Assembly (NCBI GenBank): GCA_024711295.1
Contig: JANJTB010000039.1
Coordinates: 72,319 to 136,318 of the forward strand
DNA from: a bacterium
GTDB taxonomy: Bacteria; Bacteroidota; Ignavibacteria; Kapaibacteriales; UBA2268
DNA length: 64,000 nt
Direction: 5' to 3'
The stretch's first letter is position 1. Each line of letters starts with the position of its first letter. The position numbers were made by a program, and so were the translations under genes. Under the pieces are notes generated by a model, which saw nothing but the letters and a program-made list of their open reading frames with translations, did no database searches and had not been told where the DNA came from. Positions 31,299 to 43,869 of the stretch are shown piece after piece.

Positions 31299-32159
31299 CT
31301 ATTTATTAATTATAAACTTATCAGTTTTAACAGCGTTACCCATTTTCAACGTATATATATAAACACCTGGTTGAAGTCCAAATGGGTTTACAAAATACTC
31401 ATAATCTCCGGGTGTTAATATTCCGTAGTTCTTCTCATCAAATTTATTACCATTCATATCACTTAGAATAAGCACTACATTTGCACTTTGTGTTACGGTG
31501 AACTTGATTTTACTCACTTCATTAACAGGATTTGGTGCAACTTTTGACTCAATATCAGGAGTTTGAGATTTTTCAAGTGGAGTTAACTGACACGCACCAT
31601 CAAATAGAAATACCCGCTCAATGCTTAACCCTTTACGCATCATTTTTAATCCTACTCTAGATTTTCTTGCATTTTCAGTGTTATTTAAACCATTACTCAA
31701 AATTTCAGCTATCATTTTTTTCCATTCTATTCTTTTAGTATCTAGAGATTCCTTGATTTCATTCACAAGGTTTTCGTTAGTCTCTAATAATTTATACAAT
31801 TCATTGAAAATTTCATTTCTTTTTGCTTTGCTTTCTTGATTTCTGCACTCACCTTTACTACCATGTCTTTTCCCTTGATTTTCAGCCATTCCTTTACAAT
31901 CCATATTCATCTGGCTTCTTTTTTCTCTCAATTCTTTTGCTTCGTTTCTTAATTCATTTAGCTTTGATAAATCCTCGGTGCTCAATGTTTTATCAATTTG
32001 TACCTTCCAGGTATTCATCTGTGGGCAAATAGTTGTTCGATTAAACTCGTACATCATTTCTTGATTAATTTTTTTGAAATCTCTTTTTTGTTGTTGTGAA
32101 AATGCGCTAGTACTAAACAGAGCTATAACTACAATCGTAGATAAAATGAAGCTTTTCAT
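31299..32159 (-). CDS. Helical Cys-containing exported protein with T9SS sorting domain
   Basis: A 286-residue protein with a signal peptide (cleavage likely after AFS). A charged, helical middle (about 25-185) rich in Lys/Glu includes an LNELRNEAKELREKRSQM coiled coil and a few cysteines (CPQMN, DCKGM, ECRN). The C-terminal 80 residues form a type A T9SS sorting domain: APNPVNEVSKIKFTV, then DMNGN and the PGVYIYTLKMGN...KFIINK end. The helical part recalls Spy/CpxP-type chaperones in composition, but the LTxxQ motif is not seen. It is presumably exported across the outer membrane and attached to the cell surface. Confidence 0.7.
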   Translation of the reverse strand: MKSFILSTIVVIALFSTSAFSQQQKRDFKKINQEMMYEFNRTTICPQMNTWKVQIDKTLSTEDLSKLNELRNEAKELREKRSQMNMDCKGMAENQGKRHGSKGECRNQESKAKRNEIFNELYKLLETNENLVNEIKESLDTKRIEWKKMIAEILSNGLNNTENARKSRVGLKMMRKGLSIERVFLFDGACQLTPLEKSQTPDIESKVAPNPVNEVSKIKFTVTQSANVVLILSDMNGNKFDEKNYGILTPGDYEYFVNPFGLQPGVYIYTLKMGNAVKTDKFIINK

Positions 32160-38435: not shown

Positions 38436-39506
38436 ATGGAAATTTTGAAAAAATTCTCTATGCTCATGTTGGTTCTCGCATTGAGTGCAATGATGTGGAA
38501 CTGTACAAAAGAAGGTCCTGCAGGACCAGCCGGTAAAGATGGTAAAGATGGAAACGCAACATGCGGTGTTTGTCACGCAGATAACGCTGATGCTGTTAAC
38601 TTAATCTTTGCTCAATATAACTTATCAATGCACAATCAAGGTATCGTTTACGAAGAAGAAGCCGGCAGAATAGTTTGCGGTGGTTGCCACTCAGGTGATG
38701 GTTTTGTTGAAGCTATCAAACTTGGAAAAGATGATCCAAGCACAGTAGCAACTTCAAAAATTAGTTGCCGTACATGTCACCCAATCCACGACAAGTATGA
38801 TGAATCAGACTTTGCTCTACGTTGGAATCAATCAGTTAAACTTCGCAAAGGCGGAACAGAAGTTGACTTCAAATTAGGTAACACTTGTGCAAAATGTCAT
38901 CAGGCACGTGCTTACAATGATGTAGTTGGTCCTGACACTACTTTCAAAACTTCAGGAAGCACAACTTACACTCGTTTTGGACCTCACTATGGTACACCTG
39001 CAAACGTTTACTCAATGAAAGGCTTGTATCCTATCGAAGGTCCTGAAACTATTCCTTCAACTAACGTTCATGGTAACTTGACAAAAGGTTGCGTAAGCTG
39101 CCACATGGGCAAATTGGCTTCTAACCCTGCAGTTGGTGGTCACTCATTCTTAATGACTGCTGCTCAATTTACAGAAATTCAAGAATGTAAAACTTGTCAC
39201 CCTGACAACACCACATTTACAGAAACTCCAAAAGCAAAAGAAATTGCAGCTATGTTGACTGAAATGAGACAAATTCTTCTTGATAAAGGTTGGTTAGATA
39301 TTTCTCAAACTAATACTGAACATGGATATCAAGTATTATCAGAATATATTGCTCAGTCTAAAGCTGGTGTTCAGATGACAAAAGAACAAGTTCAAGCTAT
39401 CTTAAATTATATGTATATAGCTAAAGATAGAAGTAATGGTATTCACAACCCACGTTATGTTTATGCAATTACTAAAAACACTTTAGAATTCTTAAAGAAA
39501 CAATAA
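38436..39506 (+). CDS. Hexaheme c-type cytochrome lipoprotein with collagen-like linker
   Basis: A 356-residue protein with a lipoprotein-like signal (candidate Cys23), then GPAGPAGKDGKDGN, a collagen-like linker as in OmcA/MtrC-type surface cytochromes. Six CxxCH heme sites lie at residues 43-47, 81-85, 111-115, 151-155, 219-223 and 251-255; several nearby His (66, 118, 184, 212, 236) could be axial ligands. The C-terminal 90 residues are helical. Multiheme proteins of this kind carry electrons at the cell envelope. Codon use is biased to C-ending codons (13 of 19 Asn are AAC; 10 of 13 His are CAC), unlike neighbours, which suggests high expression. A strong terminator follows. Confidence 0.9.
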   Translation: MEILKKFSMLMLVLALSAMMWNCTKEGPAGPAGKDGKDGNATCGVCHADNADAVNLIFAQYNLSMHNQGIVYEEEAGRIVCGGCHSGDGFVEAIKLGKDDPSTVATSKISCRTCHPIHDKYDESDFALRWNQSVKLRKGGTEVDFKLGNTCAKCHQARAYNDVVGPDTTFKTSGSTTYTRFGPHYGTPANVYSMKGLYPIEGPETIPSTNVHGNLTKGCVSCHMGKLASNPAVGGHSFLMTAAQFTEIQECKTCHPDNTTFTETPKAKEIAAMLTEMRQILLDKGWLDISQTNTEHGYQVLSEYIAQSKAGVQMTKEQVQAILNYMYIAKDRSNGIHNPRYVYAITKNTLEFLKKQ

Positions 39507-39533: not shown

Positions 39534-39565
39534 AGAGCTGTTCAGTAAACTGAGCAGCTCTTTTC
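39534..39565. terminator. Terminator between cytochrome and subtilase genes
   Basis: AGAGCTGTTCAG / CTGAGCAGCTCT stem with one T-G pair and a TAAA loop, followed by TTT on the plus strand. It lies between convergent genes. Confidence 0.85.
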
Positions 39566-39582
39566 ATATTTATCAAACTTGT

Positions 39583-42500
39583 TTATGGGACTATTGCAAA
39601 CTTACCCTGTTCTTCAAAAACTTCGAGTCCTTCAGTGTTTGTACCTGTAACCCTGAAAATATAAATTCCAGTTCTTAAATAATTTCCGTTTCTGTCTTTT
39701 CCGCTCCATTCTACACCACCATTACCATCAGATTCTTGTAAAATGGTAATCTCTTGTCCATCCAAAGTTAGAATAGTTACTGTTGCTCGTGGTGTAAGAT
39801 TACCGAAATAAATGGTTGGCTCATCTGACAATCTAATAGGTTGCGGATATACATAAACATCTCTTAAATTTTCTTTCGACATTACGAACCCTAATGTATT
39901 ACCAGGACCGGTGGTTATTGACTTTCCTGATTCTGAAATGATGTTTTTGACAGTTATGGAATAATTTGCACCGCGGGCACCATCTCTTCTGATCTCAGGA
40001 CTAAGATTTACCAAAACAAACTTACTGTCAGTAGGGTCTAATTCAGCATTTATTACCCTACCAACAGGTGATAAAAAGTAGTTTTCGAAGTTCTGTGCAC
40101 CATCAATTAGTATATTTTCGGAGAATTCCAGTCTTACTAATCCAATATCCAGAACTTGCAACTTCTTCAAAAATAACTCATCAGTAATTGTGTTTGATAT
40201 GACTGTAAATTGAATTGTTGTGTCGCTTGTATAATTATTGAAGAAATCTCTGAATGATGTGATATGCAAAGTATATTCACCTTCAGACAGTAATGATTCA
40301 TAGCTTAACAATAGTGAATTAGGCGATAATAGAACTGCACTGGCAATATTGAATTTTAATCCACCACTATTATTTATCGTAAAATATTCAGGGAGAATAT
40401 GATTACCTTTTAATCTGCCCTCAAAATTTAATATAAGCGAGTTTTGAGTAATGTTTTCTACCATGAGCGGTTTGGATAATGGATAAGTATATACGGTCAC
40501 TACATCACTAAAATCACCAATATTTGTTGAATATTCGTTATTGTATGAAGCAATGGAGAAATTGTATATCGAGTTTGGATTGAGGCTGGTAATTAACAAC
40601 TCAGTGCCTGAAGTTTTTGCAACTTCTCTTGCCTGAGGTGGATTTGTCTGAAAATCAATCATGAACAATACATATTCCTTTGCCTGAGGATGTGAGTCCC
40701 ATTTGAGGTATGCACTTGTACTTGACTCAGCCCAACCATCAAAATTTAAAGGTACTCCCGGCCCAGAAATTGAGTTATCAAATTCAAAGAAAGCAGTATT
40801 CCCAAATGTGGATACTCCTAATTCTTTTACTCCGTTTTTATCAAAATCGTGAATAATTGCTGAATTGGAAAATGTTGTCGGGTAATACCAAAATGGTGTC
40901 ATCTTCTTTTGCAAATTATCGTATTTCCATATATATAGATTAGGGAAAAATGATAATACTATTTCGTCTTTATTATCGCCGTTCAAATCTCCTGATGAAG
41001 AACCATTCCTAAAGAATACACCCTGACGTGTTGTTCCTGTCCTAACTCCATAAACATTTTCTGACCAAAACTCAGGTTGATAATTATTCGGTGATTCTGA
41101 TTTTATCAATCTTACTGTCCATAGTGGTGTACCTGATTCAATTTGTCCAGTTGTAATGCTTGTACCGGCAAAAGAATGCATGATTTCAGGAATCCCATCT
41201 CCATCTATATCCGGTGATTCTATAAATTGAGTACTGCTTGATTTACTCAATGAATCTATGTATTCTAGAGATAATTTACCATCGCTGAATTCATAAATGA
41301 ATAAATTGCCTCTTTGATTTGCAAAAACCAGCTCGTACTTTCCATCATTGTCAAAATCTGCAATTGCTGAATTCCTCGTTAAAGAAATATTTTTAAGGTT
41401 TGGGGGTAATATTGCTCTTGCTTTTTGTTGGTATTTACCGTCTGAATACTTGTAGATTGTGTAATAATTACCATTATCGAAATCATATTTGAACCCTATT
41501 AATTCATCTATTCCATCTTTGTCAATATCAAAGATTTTTTCAGCCCAAAACACTGAATCTATCGGAGAACGATATAGTTCTGATTCGAATGGACTGCTAT
41601 CAGTTGATTTCCTCTGCTTGATTGTACTCCTTCCATCAGATGTTCCAAAAATTTCTGGAATATTATCACCGTTAGAGTCTCCATAACCAGCAGGAATCCA
41701 ACCCTCGCTTGAAGAATCTCTCATACGAAATGAATTATTTGAAAACTCGTATATGTGGGTATCACCGATATATAAATTCGAAAGGTCATTCACTGCTATG
41801 TGTTCAGTACCATTACCATATAAATCAATGACCTGATTTAAAACATATGAACGAGGGATTGAGTAACCTTTTCTAACAAATCTTGTAGTAGCAAAGAGAT
41901 CTTGCTTTTTCGAAAAATCAAATTTATGTATCAGCGTATCCAATTCATTTGTAAAGAAATATGCTTCACCTGTATATTGAACACCTGATTCAATGCTTTC
42001 ATCTAGTAATATAGAATGTGTTTTTGAGTTGAAATCTATCTGTCTTGTAGTTAGGTAGTCTTCAGAGCCAGCTTTTTGATATTTCAGGACAAGTTTACAT
42101 TTTCTATCTGTAGCAGCTGTTACTAACACAACTCTTTTGTCGTTATAATATGCATCAATTGCCGCAAAATGATTAAGCTTCACTTTGCTTTGGTCTGAAG
42201 TTATGTTAATGTATATTCTTCTTTCGATGACGTTTTGATTTTTCTGATATACTCTAAGTGAAATTGTATAGATACTATCAGTCAAATTAGATATATCAAT
42301 CACTCCAAGCTCAGAATTTAACACCTGATTATAACTACGATTACTAATAAAAGACCAGTTTTGTGGTAATATACCAGGGCCTATAGCAATGTCGTAGCTG
42401 TCAAACAATGTTGACGAAGAGGTTCCAATAACTGAAATAAATTGGCTTTTGCTCTTATTGAATGTTTGTTCGTGATAGGGTGAAGTAATTTCGAAAGAAG

Positions 42501-43869
42501 AAGAACCTTCACTTTCCAGAGTCTTAGAAAAATCTGCAATACCTGCTCCGTAATTTACATCCCATACTGTATGATTAATTCTTTGAGCAGACATTTGTAT
42601 ATTTGCTCTTATTTCTGAAGGTGTTAAATTTGGATTTCTTTCCAACATCAAGGCTGCAAGTGCTGAAATAATAGGTGCTGATAACGATGTACCGCCTGTC
42701 AACTTGAACTGACCACCAACATCAGTAGTTATGATATTTACAGATGGAGCAGTAATATCAAGTAATGATCCATAGTTAGCTTTGCCGCTTCGCCTTAGAG
42801 ACTCATCAATACCACCAACAGAAATTACTTCTGGGTGGTCACTTGGATAGTGCTCAAATTGCCATCCATTGTTACCCGAAGAAGCAATCATAACACAACC
42901 CATTGAATAGGCAAATTTAATGGCATCATAAACTATAGGTGATTCGCTCCTTTCACCAAAACTGAAGTTCAGTACTTTTGCTCCGTTAAGAACTGCATAT
43001 AATATGGCTCTTGCAATGTCATCAGATTCTGCGTTTCCTGTTATGTCAAATGCTTTTGATGTAAGAATTTTGGCGTTTGGTGCTAAGCCGGCTATTCCGA
43101 TTTTGTTATTACGCTGAGCGCCAATTACACCCGCAACCAACGTTCCATGCTCACCCTGGTCTTCCGGTATAGGGTCAGGAGTGGAGTAATCACCTATATT
43201 TACAACACTTTGGTTTACAAAATCATATCCGATAACATCGTCTGCAAATCCATTTCCATCATTATCATTTCCGTCAAAATCTCCTGTAACTCCATCTCTG
43301 CTTTCCAAATGACTCCAGGGTTCGAAAGTACCATTACCATTGAGGTCTTCGAGTTTATTTATCCATAAGTTATTTTTTAAATCAGGATGTTCAAAATCTA
43401 TTCCGGTGTCAATCAAACCAATAATAATATTTTTACCGGTAAATTCATTCCATTTCCTTTCAGCATTGACTGCATTAATGTACCACTGCTTGTTAAATAG
43501 TGAATCATTAGGATTATCCTTATTAATTCGGTATATGTAATTTGGAAAAGCGACGATATTCTTGAAGTTGCTTTGTAAGTTATTTATTGTTGATTCCAGT
43601 TGCTCAACATCATCATTATGGATTGTAATATAATCAGCCATACTTTCAATCAAAAGTAATTGATCTTTGCTCAGGAATGAATTCAAATCTCTCTTAAGAT
43701 AATTTGGGAAACTGATTGAAGAGTGGAATTTAATATTGCTGTTTTCAAGATAAGCCGTAATCTTTTGCTTATTATCATTTAATTTAATAATATATGAGTT
43801 AAACTCATAAGCCTCAACATTTTGCAACACGCAAAACAATAAACAAAGAAGTATTGATATTTTTTTCAT
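39583..43869 (-). CDS. Large S8 subtilase with FG-GAP-like repeats, FnIII domain and T9SS sorting domain
   Basis: A 1428-residue secreted protease with a signal peptide (cleavage after VEA). The S8 triad is Asp154 (IDTGIDFEHPD), His241 (GEHGTLVAG) and Ser395 (GGTSLSAP). Calcium-type DGNDNDGNG loops occur near 199-206. The region about 690-1030 has repeated DxDxDG-type motifs (GDSNGDNIPEIFG, DIDKDGIDELIG, DFDNDGKYELVF, DIDGDGIPEI, DLNGDNKDEIVL) typical of FG-GAP/VCBS propellers. A fibronectin III domain spans about 1036-1125. The C-terminal 80 residues are a FlgD/T9SS-like domain ending TGIYIFRVTG...KFAIVP. It is probably exported by T9SS and degrades or processes extracellular proteins. Confidence 0.92.
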   Translation of the reverse strand: MKKISILLCLLFCVLQNVEAYEFNSYIIKLNDNKQKITAYLENSNIKFHSSISFPNYLKRDLNSFLSKDQLLLIESMADYITIHNDDVEQLESTINNLQSNFKNIVAFPNYIYRINKDNPNDSLFNKQWYINAVNAERKWNEFTGKNIIIGLIDTGIDFEHPDLKNNLWINKLEDLNGNGTFEPWSHLESRDGVTGDFDGNDNDGNGFADDVIGYDFVNQSVVNIGDYSTPDPIPEDQGEHGTLVAGVIGAQRNNKIGIAGLAPNAKILTSKAFDITGNAESDDIARAILYAVLNGAKVLNFSFGERSESPIVYDAIKFAYSMGCVMIASSGNNGWQFEHYPSDHPEVISVGGIDESLRRSGKANYGSLLDITAPSVNIITTDVGGQFKLTGGTSLSAPIISALAALMLERNPNLTPSEIRANIQMSAQRINHTVWDVNYGAGIADFSKTLESEGSSSFEITSPYHEQTFNKSKSQFISVIGTSSSTLFDSYDIAIGPGILPQNWSFISNRSYNQVLNSELGVIDISNLTDSIYTISLRVYQKNQNVIERRIYINITSDQSKVKLNHFAAIDAYYNDKRVVLVTAATDRKCKLVLKYQKAGSEDYLTTRQIDFNSKTHSILLDESIESGVQYTGEAYFFTNELDTLIHKFDFSKKQDLFATTRFVRKGYSIPRSYVLNQVIDLYGNGTEHIAVNDLSNLYIGDTHIYEFSNNSFRMRDSSSEGWIPAGYGDSNGDNIPEIFGTSDGRSTIKQRKSTDSSPFESELYRSPIDSVFWAEKIFDIDKDGIDELIGFKYDFDNGNYYTIYKYSDGKYQQKARAILPPNLKNISLTRNSAIADFDNDGKYELVFANQRGNLFIYEFSDGKLSLEYIDSLSKSSSTQFIESPDIDGDGIPEIMHSFAGTSITTGQIESGTPLWTVRLIKSESPNNYQPEFWSENVYGVRTGTTRQGVFFRNGSSSGDLNGDNKDEIVLSFFPNLYIWKYDNLQKKMTPFWYYPTTFSNSAIIHDFDKNGVKELGVSTFGNTAFFEFDNSISGPGVPLNFDGWAESSTSAYLKWDSHPQAKEYVLFMIDFQTNPPQAREVAKTSGTELLITSLNPNSIYNFSIASYNNEYSTNIGDFSDVVTVYTYPLSKPLMVENITQNSLILNFEGRLKGNHILPEYFTINNSGGLKFNIASAVLLSPNSLLLSYESLLSEGEYTLHITSFRDFFNNYTSDTTIQFTVISNTITDELFLKKLQVLDIGLVRLEFSENILIDGAQNFENYFLSPVGRVINAELDPTDSKFVLVNLSPEIRRDGARGANYSITVKNIISESGKSITTGPGNTLGFVMSKENLRDVYVYPQPIRLSDEPTIYFGNLTPRATVTILTLDGQEITILQESDGNGGVEWSGKDRNGNYLRTGIYIFRVTGTNTEGLEVFEEQGKFAIVP

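Follow-up and report, generated by a model that had tools for sequence, protein, structure and literature searches.

The analysed window, a stretch of DNA 64,000 nucleotides long, carries at positions 38436 to 39506 the gene for a six-heme lipoprotein that we take, with a probability of roughly 0.6, to be an outer-surface multiheme component of a porin-linked system for extracellular electron transfer (EET). Relatives of this protein are nearly always encoded beside a heme-bearing outer-membrane pore, and the hexaheme protein hence looks like one part of an electrical link between the cell and its outside.

The hexaheme gene and its product

The open reading frame specifies six CxxCH heme sites and a predicted lipoprotein signal, as an earlier reading of the sequence alone (the sequence-only reading) had described. 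Chance can be dismissed as the source of these sites, since residue shuffles of the window protein produced on average 0.017 and at most two of them. The features of the locus, in window coordinates, are the following.

38436..39506, + strand: hexaheme lipoprotein gene (open reading frame of 356 aa, six CxxCH)
38436..38504, + strand: signal peptide and lipobox, Cys23 being the predicted lipidated residue (by eye)
38505..38561, + strand: Gly-X-Y-rich tether TKEGPAGPAGKDGKDGNAT, from lipid anchor to first heme (from the sequence)
38562..38576, + strand: heme site 1, CGVCH, residues 43-47 (CxxCH motif)
38676..38690, + strand: heme site 2, CGGCH, residues 81-85 (CxxCH motif)
38766..38780, + strand: heme site 3, CRTCH, residues 111-115 (CxxCH motif)
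38886..38900, + strand: heme site 4, CAKCH, residues 151-155 (CxxCH motif)
39090..39104, + strand: heme site 5, CVSCH, residues 219-223 (CxxCH motif)
39186..39200, + strand: heme site 6, CKTCH, residues 251-255 (CxxCH motif)
39066..39497, + strand: NrfA-like C-terminal part with H212, CxxCHM, GGH, CxxCH, helices and S-G-I-H337-N-P (profile match, fold)
39534..39561, + strand: terminator-like hairpin, 12 pairs and a T-rich tail (consensus match only)

The lipobox-like MMWN-C23 is followed by the tether, and its cysteine is invariant in all 37 full-length relatives; with lipidation predicted, the window protein has the make-up of an outer cytochrome, that is, of a lipid-anchored multiheme c-type protein. 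The linker had been likened to collagen, and a short Gly-X-Y stretch is indeed present, but at about four units (2-14 in relatives, in which the tether spans 11-47 residues) the repeats are too few for collagen and we regard the stretch as a tether. The gene on the 3' side is convergent and, together with the terminator-like hairpin, this makes the hexaheme gene look monocistronic: it appears to be transcribed alone. A promoter scan at the gene returned nothing above chance. By eye, T9SS-like tails are carried by two further products of the window, a large subtilisin-like protease with FG-GAP-like repeats (39583-43869) and a small secreted protein (31299-32159), suggesting that the organism uses type IX secretion.

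The codon choice of the gene had been singled out as a signature of strong expression, and the numbers bear this out. AAC accounts for 13 of 19 cases, against 26% in other genes (binomial p 1e-4), and CAC for 10 of 13, against 30% (binomial p 6e-4). Using the ribosomal-protein and elongation-factor genes of the same genome as reference (L095), the gene reaches a CAI of 0.817 (median 0.678) and ranks first among 352 genes of at least 150 aa, drawn from about a seventh of the genome; rank 2 falls to flagellin, named from its sequence, and rank 4 to the hexaheme gene of a paralogous operon. In 33 of 39 family members, C-ending codons are likewise more frequent than elsewhere in the locus. From the top CAI and the excess of C-ending codons, high expression of the window gene is a reasonable inference.

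Heme ligation and relationship to the NrfA fold

Across the 37 full-length members, the histidines of the six CxxCH sites are invariant together with exactly six further ones (66, 118, 184, 212, 236 and 337; H337 in 36, with one gap), and the spacer of the sixth site is longer in some, as in CAQSDCH. This pattern fits six bis-His hemes, which the protein could contain, invariance being no proof of ligation. Because there is a candidate second histidine for every heme, and no CxxCK in the window protein, the hexaheme protein should carry electrons rather than catalyse, in agreement with the surface or periplasmic carrier envisaged by the sequence-only reading.

Residues 211-354 match four NrfA chains by profile (E 6e-6 to 2e-5), in an alignment that pairs H212, CxxCHM, CxxCH and an HNP motif. 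Judging from the profiles, the C-terminal half has a relative in NrfA and, at a weaker level, in OcwA (direct profile match, E 0.04), and it shares with the NrfA-fold superfamily (NrfA, octaheme proteins, OcwA) a homologous C-terminal heme pair and a helical bundle. A PDB search with the single protein gave weak NrfA matches (E 0.24 and 0.32), and the window protein scored below the cut-offs of Pfam Cytochrom_C552 (PF02335; 23.8 against 24.1) and TIGR03152 (11.2 against 692.5). The best structural neighbours are MccA, OcwA, the undecaheme S-layer cytochrome 6qvm and NrfA/nitrite reductases, with fold Z values of 7.4-8.6 for the first three, but the AlphaFold model behind these comparisons is of low confidence (pLDDT 49.8), owing to the absence of hemes and a shallow alignment. 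Foldseek returned no match to it with E under 0.001, and the fold evidence is thus secondary.

With the pentaheme nitrite reductase NrfA the window protein has in common the C-terminal heme pair, the distal histidine pattern and the HNP motif, whereas it lacks the CxxCK heme and the N-terminal catalytic region, has two extra hemes in the middle and is a lipoprotein. OcwA, a nonaheme cell-surface terminal reductase of Thermincola potens with an NrfA fold (PDB 6i5b) and two active-site hemes (PMC6703420), is comparable in its multiheme nature, its NrfA-type C-terminal helices and its EET role at the surface. It differs in having nine hemes, active-site hemes among them, in being Gram-positive and in having no porin, as opposed to the six hemes with six further invariant histidines, the lipid anchor and the porin-linked relatives found here. 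The protein also stands apart from MtrC, OmcA and UndA, as had been claimed for the first two, with six rather than 10-11 hemes and a score for PF22113 of 27.3 bits against a cut-off of 30. Clear membership in a nitrite or tetrathionate reductase family, which the sequence-only reading had named as evidence against itself, did not emerge from these family and structure searches.

Genomic context of the family

The family comprises 40 copies, 37 of them in loci that could be assessed. In 32 of the 37, the next gene on the same strand encodes a barrel, about 400 aa long, whose N-terminal part holds a single CxxCH; in two it encodes a heme-less barrel, and in one it is another hexaheme copy, with a barrel gene behind it. 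Linkage to a barrel overall, including the case via a neighbouring copy, thus extends to 35 of 37 loci and supports the connection with EET that had been suggested. The two exceptions are the window copy, correctly described beforehand as having no adjacent porin or quinol-oxidase gene, and its orthologue L044 in the sister species G001. The notion of a standalone conduit, on the other hand, does not hold up. A lipoprotein without a barrel cannot span the outer membrane alone, its relatives are porin-linked, and a second copy in the same genome (G000), 40% identical, lies on contig C32 in an operon that runs lipoprotein, porin, Rieske protein and cytochrome c. This operon is a porin-cytochrome module of the kind that the sequence-only reading proposed to seek elsewhere in the genome, as it did cytochrome c maturation genes, which are present as CcmE/CcmF-type genes on C28. 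Genes for 13-heme and b561 proteins are located on C8 and C7; a second multiheme cluster in this genome (L094 6345-12893, G000:C7) consists of consecutive genes, whose products are a 19-heme protein that includes a b561 domain, a protein with 13 hemes, a b561 protein and a hexaheme protein of the NapC type.

The barrel prediction (pLDDT 64.5, pTM 0.70) finds its best Foldseek matches in solved porins (E 1e-10 to 1e-11), and the C-terminal residue of the heme-porin is tyrosine; the porin matches no Pfam or NCBIfam family. The genes that often follow encode a Rieske lipoprotein of the Tat type, a monoheme cytochrome c, a 13-heme protein whose C-terminus holds a membrane segment, and a b561 protein, the last fused in several genomes to a NapC-type multiheme part. 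The heme-porin occurs in 78 of 100 genomes of the order, many of them from families in which the hexaheme protein was not found, which points to another or a broader role for the porin; the basic role of the barrel may hence be broader than the hexaheme electron path. At L150-L169, mostly from other families of the order, a heme-porin without the hexaheme protein has as neighbours a Rieske lipoprotein, a small membrane protein (about 110 aa) and a secreted one (about 225 aa) that is YceI-like by eye, and this set would constitute an order-wide module.

The partner porin, a barrel about 400 aa long that bears a single CxxCH N-terminally, resembles in this respect Cyc2, a single heme fused to a barrel with the motif AXPXFAR[Q/K][T/Y] (PMC8406198). 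Its heme context, RPQYSILQ-x-x-G-x-K-C-x-x-CH, is nonetheless different, and in the listed members ARPQYSILQ and similar sequences precede CxxCH in place of the Cyc2 motif. Porin-cytochrome (Pcc) and Mtr clusters (Shi et al. 2014; PMC4245776) are similar in that an outer-membrane barrel gene adjoins multiheme cytochrome genes. The main arrangement described here departs from them in that the porin brings one heme of its own and has a Rieske lipoprotein as partner, and the window copy in being unlinked.

Some family members do follow the plan of known porin-cytochrome clusters (PMC4245776), and in other families of the class the lipoprotein is grouped with a porin and a cytochrome of 12-14 hemes. 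In L079 its gene has as neighbours those of a 12-heme cytochrome and of a porin that lacks heme; in L129 they are those of a porin-like barrel and a 14-heme cytochrome. Both barrels are called porins by sequence appearance, with no match to Pfam or NCBIfam. In addition, the 670-aa, nine-heme relative L133, the only long relative covered by the scan for such tails, ends in Por_Secre_tail, a T9SS sorting domain. These distant relatives indicate the cell surface, and the hexaheme lipoprotein is very probably an outer-surface electron carrier. Longer relatives are not restricted to L133 (9023-11032), other profile matches measuring 660-1000 aa, many with nine CxxCH. In another class of the phylum, a family member (L136 9019-13391) lies beside a monoheme cytochrome and a protein with an EB_dh domain, the heme-b type of ethylbenzene dehydrogenase.

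Distribution and history

The hexaheme gene was found in 35 of 100 related genomes, all 35 belonging to a single Kapaibacterium-like family (54 genomes searched), with no match at 1e-10 in the 46 genomes that represent other families of the order. The relatives that carry a name are Candidatus Kapaibacterium and MAGs of Ignavibacteria. When 395 genomes of the phylum were searched with a profile, more distant relatives came up in many families. At the distant matches L011, L012 and L014 (Polyangiaceae/Myxococcales, Krumholzibacteriota), ORF calling gave no clean family member. One genome (G011) holds three hexaheme gene copies and two heme-porins in tandem (L054 8080-16556).

In a maximum-likelihood tree the solo copies of the window and of G001 group together (support 100/98) within a clade of 17 rows (100/100), in which porin linkage holds for all other members that could be assessed; the sister row G015 lies at a contig end, outside the locus assessment, and the operon paralogue of the same genome falls in another clade. 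Read most simply, this topology means that a porin-linked gene gave rise to the solo copy, which in this genus lost or left its partner. A remnant of a porin near the window gene was also considered and rejected, the one porin match of the genome being at C32.

Proposed electron path and alternative explanations

In the path that we propose, electrons from the quinone pool would pass to the b561/NapC-type and 13-heme proteins, then through the small cytochrome c and the Rieske lipoprotein to the heme-porin, and from there to the hexaheme protein, which, held outside by its lipid and Gly-rich stalk, would exchange them with an external acceptor such as a mineral, humic matter, a flavin or a partner cell. 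The window copy, having lost or left its own porin, would probably be charged via the porin that the paralogous operon encodes and, produced in quantity, probably serve as an extra surface relay or capacitor. The less certain step of this scheme is its direction, taken here as outward (reduction) and not as iron oxidation. The same parts could conceivably run inward to oxidise iron or another donor, with the heme-porin acting like Cyc2, whose plan of a single heme fused to a barrel it shares; we consider this unlikely, in view of the missing AXPXFAR motif and of inner-membrane partners, b561 and NapC-type proteins, that usually oxidise quinol.

The location of the protein admits a different reading, since lipoproteins can also face the periplasm. 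A periplasm-facing outer-membrane lipoprotein, serving as reservoir or shuttle for periplasmic reductases, would suit both the window copy without an adjoining porin and an operon that also encodes periplasmic-type carriers. Yet that slot is already filled by the 12-heme cytochrome in L079 and the 14-heme cytochrome in L129, and the sorting tail of the related nine-heme protein speaks for the exterior, which leaves the periplasmic placement with perhaps one chance in five. Even more doubtful is an outer-membrane enzyme of the NrfA, OcwA or octaheme kind, reducing nitrite, hydroxylamine, sulfite or similar substrates: the NrfA profile match (E 6e-6) and the structural neighbours would favour it, but six hemes with six further invariant histidines leave no obvious open heme, CxxCK is missing, and OcwA, by contrast, has two active-site hemes (PMC6703420).

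Within the preferred reading of a porin-linked surface lipoprotein, a more specific and tentative proposal, to which we would give somewhat less than even odds, is that these loci form a separate class of conduit. In this class a single-heme barrel would receive electrons from a Rieske lipoprotein exported by Tat and from cytochrome c, and would deliver them to an NrfA-derived six-heme surface lipoprotein, of which the window holds an over-produced orphan copy. If so, it would represent another recruitment of the NrfA fold as a surface terminal cytochrome, now Gram-negative and porin-linked.

Porin-cytochrome conduits of Ignavibacteria have so far been recognised by likeness to Geobacter or Shewanella porins (PMC7399161). 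With no MtrC-like outer cytochrome and a porin that matches neither Pfam nor NCBIfam, the hexaheme family would probably be missed by such searches. The open-access papers searched yielded no description of the family and no link between 'Kapabacteria' and 'extracellular electron transfer'. If the reading put forward here is true, minerals, electrodes or partners could exchange electrons with bacteria of the Kapaibacterium-like family, and a surface cytochrome would, by the codon signature of the window gene, rank with the most abundant proteins that the cell makes.
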